Translations under genes and position numbers: made by a program
The notes under the pieces: generated by a model
Databases searched by the model: none
Told to the model about the DNA's origin: nothing
The model's input: only the letters and a program-made list of their open reading frames with translations
Assembly: GCA_913063375.1 (NCBI GenBank)
Contig: CAJXXR010000005.1
Location: forward strand, 62,001-126,000
Length of the DNA: 64,000 nucleotides
Reading direction: 5' to 3'
Source of the DNA: an uncultured Flavobacteriales bacterium
Lineage (GTDB): Bacteria; Bacteroidota; Bacteroidia; Flavobacteriales; CAJXXR01
Shown: piece after piece, positions 28,853-48,775 of the stretch
How positions within the stretch are numbered: the first letter of the stretch is position 1
How the letters are laid out: each line of letters begins with the position of its first letter

Positions 28853-28880
28853 AAAGCCGAGATATACATCTCAGCTTTTT
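28853..28880 (+). terminator. intrinsic terminator after NTF2-like gene
   Basis: 11-bp stem AAAGCCGAGAT / ATCTCAGCTTT with one mismatch and a four-base loop, followed by TT. About 50 bases past the stop codon. Confidence 0.7.
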
Positions 28881-29048: not shown

Positions 29049-29064
29049 TATGATCTAGATCATA
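29049..29064. promoter_or_regulatory. Crp/Fnr-type palindromic operator candidate
   Basis: Perfect 16-bp palindrome TATGATCTAGATCATA. Its core TGAT-CTAG-ATCA fits the TTGATnnnnATCAA box of Fnr/Dnr-family regulators except at the outermost bases. It lies 13 bases upstream of the -7 element of the HYC_CC_PP gene, in the place of the missing -33 TTG, which is where a class II activator would bind. Regulator identity is inferred. Confidence 0.55.
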
Positions 29065-29077
29065 AAAATATTTATTA

Positions 29078-29085
29078 TATTTTTG
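29078..29085 (+). promoter_or_regulatory. -7 promoter element for HYC_CC_PP gene
   Basis: TATTTTTG matches TAnnTTTG, 22 bases before the TTG start codon. No TTG at the -33 position; the Fnr-like palindrome occupies that place. Confidence 0.5.
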
Positions 29086-29107
29086 AACTAATTCATTACT
29101 AAGGACA

Positions 29108-29533
29108 TTGAAAAAACTTTACCCCTTATTGCTCGCCATAATGCTACTCTCAAGCAATATGGGATTATCCATCTTCACACACTACTGTGGGGGTAGAGCT
29201 GTAAGTTCAATAATCTCCTTTTCGCATCAACAGTCGTGTTGTAAACAAATCCCAGTAAGTCCCACACAAGCATTCACCACATGCTCCAAAGAAGGAGTAT
29301 CCTCCTGCGCAAATACTTGTTGTCAAGATGAATTACTATATTCTCAAAATACGGACGATTATAGGACCGTAAATACAATTTGTATAGATTACTCTACAGC
29401 TTTCACTAATTCAGCCAGTCCTCAATTCAATTTTCTTTTTGAACAAGACGACCCCGAAATTATTGAAATCAAAAAAATTCCTCCCCTTCTGAAACAGAAA
29501 GATTATATTCTGTTTCAGTCCTTCCTGATATAA
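29108..29533 (+). CDS. HYC_CC_PP family exported protein
   Basis: A 141-residue exported protein of the small Bacteroidota family named after its motifs: HYC at FTHYCGG (about residues 24-30), CC at SCCK and TCCQ, PP at KIPPLL near the C-terminus. The signal peptide MKKLYPLLLAIMLLSSNMG requires the TTG start at 29108; no ATG gives a full signal. The nine or so cysteines suggest metal binding or disulfides in the periplasm. Family members often sit beside TonB-dependent receptors or heavy-metal genes, but no such neighbour is seen here. Function unknown. The stop region contains a perfect 11-bp inverted repeat. Confidence 0.82.
   Translation: MKKLYPLLLAIMLLSSNMGLSIFTHYCGGRAVSSIISFSHQQSCCKQIPVSPTQAFTTCSKEGVSSCANTCCQDELLYSQNTDDYRTVNTICIDYSTAFTNSASPQFNFLFEQDDPEIIEIKKIPPLLKQKDYILFQSFLI

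Positions 29534-47237: not shown

Positions 47238-48775
<1,538 letters not shown>

Follow-up and report, generated by a model that had tools for sequence, protein, structure and literature searches.

A predicted Fnr-type operator at the -33 position of an HYC_CC_PP gene promoter in an uncultured Flavobacteriales bacterium

Introduction

The window examined in our study is a 64-kb stretch of DNA of an uncultured Flavobacteriales bacterium. A perfect 16-bp palindrome in this window covers the -33 region in the promoter of an HYC_CC_PP gene. This placement raises two questions: which kind of regulator recognizes the palindrome, and would that regulator activate or repress the gene from such a position?

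The palindrome, the promoter and the gene

The palindrome TATGATCTAGATCATA, hereafter the HYC box, was located at 29049..29064, with no strand assigned. Its core TGAT-CTAG-ATCA occupies 29051-29062 and its centre lies at about -33.5; the sequence and the exact copies found elsewhere are the basis for annotating it as an Fnr-type operator. The TAnnTTTG (-7) promoter element TATTTTTG was recognized by sequence at 29078..29085 on the plus strand and starts 13 bases past the palindrome. With the TA of this element set to -12, the predicted transcription start falls at 29090 on the plus strand. A TTG was sought 17-23 bases upstream of the TA in TATTTTTG and none was present; the trinucleotide 19 bases upstream is TAG, contributed by the centre of the palindrome. 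The first-pass annotation had described the 16-bp palindrome with its TGAT-nnnn-ATCA core, its distance of 13 bases from TAnnTTTG and the missing -33 TTG, all of which were confirmed in the sequence.

The gene (29108..29533, plus strand) has a TTG start and encodes an HYC_CC_PP family protein of 141 aa, which scored 58.4 bits against NF047658 (cut-off 28). The protein contained a signal- or TM-like N-terminus, followed by the HYC, CC and PP motifs, and eight Cys residues in all. The HYC box is intergenic, about 45 bp upstream of the start codon. A terminator-like hairpin at 28853..28878 (no strand assigned; listed on the minus strand, with the same stem followed by TTTTTCG on the plus strand) separates the upstream SnoaL-like gene from the HYC_CC_PP promoter, and the HYC_CC_PP gene is therefore probably a transcription unit of its own. 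A role of the palindrome as an RNA hairpin was rejected because it lies upstream of the -7 element and thus outside the predicted transcript. Although the box is symmetric, control of a leftward promoter was also rejected: a suitably spaced TAnnTTTG was absent on that side, and no leftward gene was convincing.

Consensus and spacing of the box

By chance, 64 kb should contain 1.6 perfect 16-bp palindromes; two were found, the other one within an ORF, and the symmetry by itself therefore proves nothing. The pattern TGAT-N4-ATCA followed by TAnnTTTG was searched in 60 genomes of the order Flavobacteriales. Among the 150 matches listed, the gap between core and TAnnTTTG was 23 in 51 and 24 in 20 (71/150 together), and the background gaps held a mean of 4.5 matches each. 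In Flavobacterium psychrophilum, TAnnTTTG is the sigma-A box and has been mapped to -12 to -5 (PMC9723704); on this scale, a gap of 23 or 24 places the box centre at -41.5 or -42.5, which is where class II Crp/Fnr activators bind. Of the 18 peak-gap matches sampled, nearly all were intergenic, and the genes that they preceded were hemN-, ccoS- and Mrp-type ATPase-like, among others. The flanking letters gave the Bacteroidota consensus ATGAT-N4-ATCAT. The HYC box matches this consensus fully and carries the inverted repeat TGAT-N4-ATCA of an Fnr-type operator at 29051-29062; by this prediction it is very probably a genuine Fnr-family operator.

The exact 16-mer TATGATCTAGATCATA has one further copy in the 2.46-Mb assembly (C19:54054, L043), where 0.0024 copies are expected. 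This copy stands in the activator (class II) position, 22 bases before the TAnnTTTG element TACCTTTG and upstream of a gene for a 104-aa membrane protein. This membrane protein (L043:1501-1883) had no Pfam or NCBIfam match; in Aquimarina (L102) the gene of a 28%-identical homologue likewise follows the exact 16-mer at class II spacing. The site TGATCTAGATCA at C1:161860 was set aside as it lies within an ORF.

The exact HYC box (ATGATCTAGATCAT) with TAnnTTTG was also sought across the contig collection. All seven matches labelled Bacteroidota were at gap 23 or 24. The box was found at recognized Fnr targets, namely between the fnr gene and hemN in Fluviicola (L109), adjoining fixI in Portibacter (L098), and at Crp/Fnr genes in Epilithonimonas (L101/G095) and Chryseobacterium (L104). 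In L061 (G095) and L101 (Epilithonimonas), the exact palindrome separates a short gene for a Crp/Fnr protein of 198 aa from a divergently oriented pair of genes for small proteins of 65-66 aa, and it takes the class II position relative to this pair. The matches with labels other than Bacteroidota probably arose by chance or within coding sequence and were not considered further; in the Sulfurovum-type records the match was always before the same ribosomal-protein gene. One near-identical locus, with CATGATCTAGATCATG next to an HMA-like protein, was common to three MAG records that carry the labels Ca. Methylopumilus, Gammaproteobacteria and Bordetella parapertussis (L094, L097 and L103); this points to mislabelled bins or to a mobile element that the three share.

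Crp/Fnr regulators and the predicted regulon

Four Crp/Fnr regulators (HTH_Crp_2 proteins) were found in the genome: one divergent from fixI on contig C9, one beside norC/norB on contig C1, and two others. Gene names such as fixI, norC, norB and moeA were assigned from the translations. Solved Fnr structures were matched by both the C9 and the C1 protein. The C1 regulator contained CX2CX8C and a further Cys that aligns with the central Fe-S Cys in the solved structures, and so keeps all four Fe-S positions, whereas the C9 regulator contained CX2C and the central Fe-S Cys with a Ser at the third position, and so keeps three of the four. The recognition helix of the C9 protein, VGTATESVIRLL, is nearly identical to that of the Fluviicola Fnr, VGTATETLIRLL, which is encoded beside the same box (TESVIR versus TETLIR), as for a cognate regulator. 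The palindrome TTGTACGAATGTACAA directly upstream of the fourth Crp/Fnr gene (L040:7401-7416, contig C28) is possibly an autoregulatory site of a different type.

The gap-23 search of this genome, with one mismatch allowed, gave 15 matches, against 2 for the reversed control pattern. The matches included ccoN and the gene of the Fe-S repair protein RIC, both NCBIfam-confirmed, as well as genes for a moeA-like product, a TauE-like permease, a DUF2892-like protein and two paralogous small Cys proteins. A predicted Fnr-like regulon is thus clear in this genome. The first-pass annotation had proposed a Crp/Fnr-type box and suggested a search for a regulator of this family and for similar sites near denitrification, cytochrome or hemerythrin genes; the full match to ATGAT-N4-ATCAT, the four regulators and the ccoN box at gap 23 agree with it.

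In the same window, hemB (porphobilinogen synthase, 47795-48775) is preceded by a further class II Fnr candidate (47733-47776), in which the Fnr box TGATTAATATCT, with one mismatch, is spaced 24 bp upstream of TATCTTTG. Class II Fnr boxes also precede the genes of paralogous small proteins of this genome (L154 on C20 and L155 on C24) that combine a CEN...L-x-C-x-G-x-C motif with a C-terminal PPP, and a similar protein with such a box was present in another genus (L183, G008). The L154 and L155 proteins had no match in NCBIfam; their architecture recalls HYC_CC_PP.

Off-register position of the HYC box

A class II box is centred near -41.5 and 23-24 bp before TAnnTTTG, whereas the HYC box, at gap 15, is eight bases too close to the promoter for this arrangement, and its centre at -33.5 coincides with the -33 element. 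Gap 15 was at background among the 150 matches listed (4 matches versus 4.5 per background gap), and the other three gap-15 matches listed, from related genomes, were all within ORFs. A second productive geometry at gap 15 was rejected, as only the HYC match was intergenic among the gap-15 matches listed. No TAnnTTTG-like element was found 22-25 bp downstream of the HYC box, where the best sequence had 2/6 letters. Of the 23 sites in Escherichia coli that Fnr activates and for which the start is known, 19 are found at -41.5 +/- 4, while the Fnr-repressed sites range from -125.5 to +1 (PMC3688515). The background level of gap 15, the absence of an alternative -7 element and the E. coli positions together make activation unlikely, and repression through occupation of the -33 element is the simplest reading. 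The first-pass annotation had taken the geometry for that of an activator-dependent promoter; this did not hold, as the boxes in the order sit 23-24 bp before TAnnTTTG and the HYC box 15 bp.

We tentatively propose, at a confidence just short of probable, that the HYC box is an Fnr operator which would block the promoter when Fnr is active. The regulator would be of the Crp/Fnr family, and the Fnr ortholog beside fixI on C9 appears the most likely of the four. When activated by low oxygen or by an NO/redox signal, it would bind from -41 to -26, centred at -33.5, and would cover the site at which sigma would contact the -33 element. RNA polymerase would then be kept off the promoter, and HYC_CC_PP expression would be repressed or stay low; the strong TATTTTTG element would drive transcription whenever the regulator is inactive. 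Two points speak against repression. Without a -33 TTG the promoter may have little strength of its own, a trait commoner among activated promoters, and the class II boxes at HYC_CC_PP genes of some other genera, described below, predict activation.

HYC_CC_PP genes in other genomes

Across the class Bacteroidia, 132 distinct regions upstream of HYC_CC_PP genes were scanned over their final 130 bp. A perfect TGAT-N4-ATCA core was present in 6 of the 132, the gene of this window included; 23 other spaced palindromes of the same composition gave a mean of 0.22 and a maximum of 2 per 132 regions. The large majority of the upstream regions were devoid of the box. Cores of at least 7/8 letters at gap 23/24 from a -7 element (up to one mismatch) were found at six genes (L016, L201, L208, L210, L212 and L261), against about 0.9 expected from other spacings. 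The predicted Fnr link thus recurs in a small minority of the family, where outside this lineage it looks like activation. The expectation in the first-pass annotation that homologous genes would carry the box was borne out for these 6/132 (0.2 expected) and failed for most of the family; its reading as a whole is partly supported. For footprinting among close relatives, no HYC_CC_PP homologue was detected in the one other genome of this bacterial family, and none from a close relative was found in a protein scan of the contig collection.

The 84 neighbouring ORFs of HYC_CC_PP genes included 14 RND efflux pumps, 8 HMA domains and 8 TonB plugs, and MbnP and multicopper oxidase genes were also present. 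On contig C7, the interval L036:841-6306 contained the second HYC_CC_PP gene of this genome (L010/L036), followed by genes for a CusA-like RND pump and a TolC-like protein; no Fnr box was found at this paralogue. A role of HYC_CC_PP proteins in the envelope handling of copper or other metals is plausible from this gene content. The family name was not found in the literature searched, which thus gave no described regulation for comparison. A broader picture, which we consider doubtful, is that these small envelope proteins handle copper and are tied to oxygen via Fnr, with activation from -41.5 in several genera and repression in this lineage, the box having shifted by 8-9 bp onto the -33 element. 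The Fnr link and the metal-efflux neighbourhood are two testable leads for a widespread, uncharacterised Bacteroidota family.

Alternative explanations

An activator-dependent promoter, at which Fnr/Dnr bound to the palindrome recruits RNA polymerase to TATTTTTG, would account for the strong box and the absent -33 TTG, and it has a parallel in the six class II-spaced boxes at HYC_CC_PP genes of other genera. It is nevertheless unlikely here, as the spacing is 15 and not 23-24, no TAnnTTTG-like sequence follows 22-25 bp downstream, and the centre at -33.5 falls outside the E. coli activation range and overlaps the sigma site. The box may also be bound without regulatory effect, or be a relic of a former promoter layout (for example after a deletion of 8-9 bp), which would fit the lack of a box at most HYC_CC_PP genes and the background level of gap 15. 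A perfect 16-bp consensus box which is intergenic and so close to the start codon would be expected to decay if unselected, and we hold this explanation to be improbable.

MerR-type sites occupy the promoter spacer. The operator of another kind of regulator, such as a sensor of the MerR or metal type that works from within this spacer, would thus suit both the position of the box and the RND efflux, HMA and TonB-plug genes around HYC_CC_PP genes. The exact copies at fnr/hemN and Crp/Fnr loci argue against it, as do the agreement of the core with an Fnr consensus obtained independently from spacing and the CusA-adjacent paralogue without a box, which makes it very unlikely. Chance, for which the 1.6 palindromes expected per 64 kb leave room, is more remote still in view of the second exact genomic copy and the regulon consensus match. 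Repression by a Crp/Fnr regulator remains our preferred, tentative reading.

Comparison with known systems

The target gene is a clear member of NCBIfam HYC_CC_PP (NF047658). The type of box is already known; what is new is its off-register placement and the Fnr link to the HYC_CC_PP family. The HYC box has the TGAT-N4-ATCA core in common with the proteobacterial Fnr/Dnr/Anr box TTGAT-N4-ATCAA, and the Bacteroidota boxes, like the proteobacterial ones, take the class II position (-41.5/-42.5) upstream of genes for respiration, haem and Fe-S repair. They differ in the outer letters, which are A and T at the HYC box and across the order (ATGAT-N4-ATCAT). The occurrence of ATGAT-N4-ATCAT 23-24 bp before TAnnTTTG provides a quantitative rule for Fnr-type regulons in Bacteroidota genomes, and its spacing tells activating boxes from off-register ones such as the HYC box, which lies at -33.5 unlike the class II Fnr/Dnr/Anr boxes. 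The Fnr-repressed promoters of E. coli, such as ndh, likewise have an operator where class II activation is not possible; they differ from the HYC_CC_PP promoter in that repression of the latter is predicted and its sigma elements are those at -33/-7.
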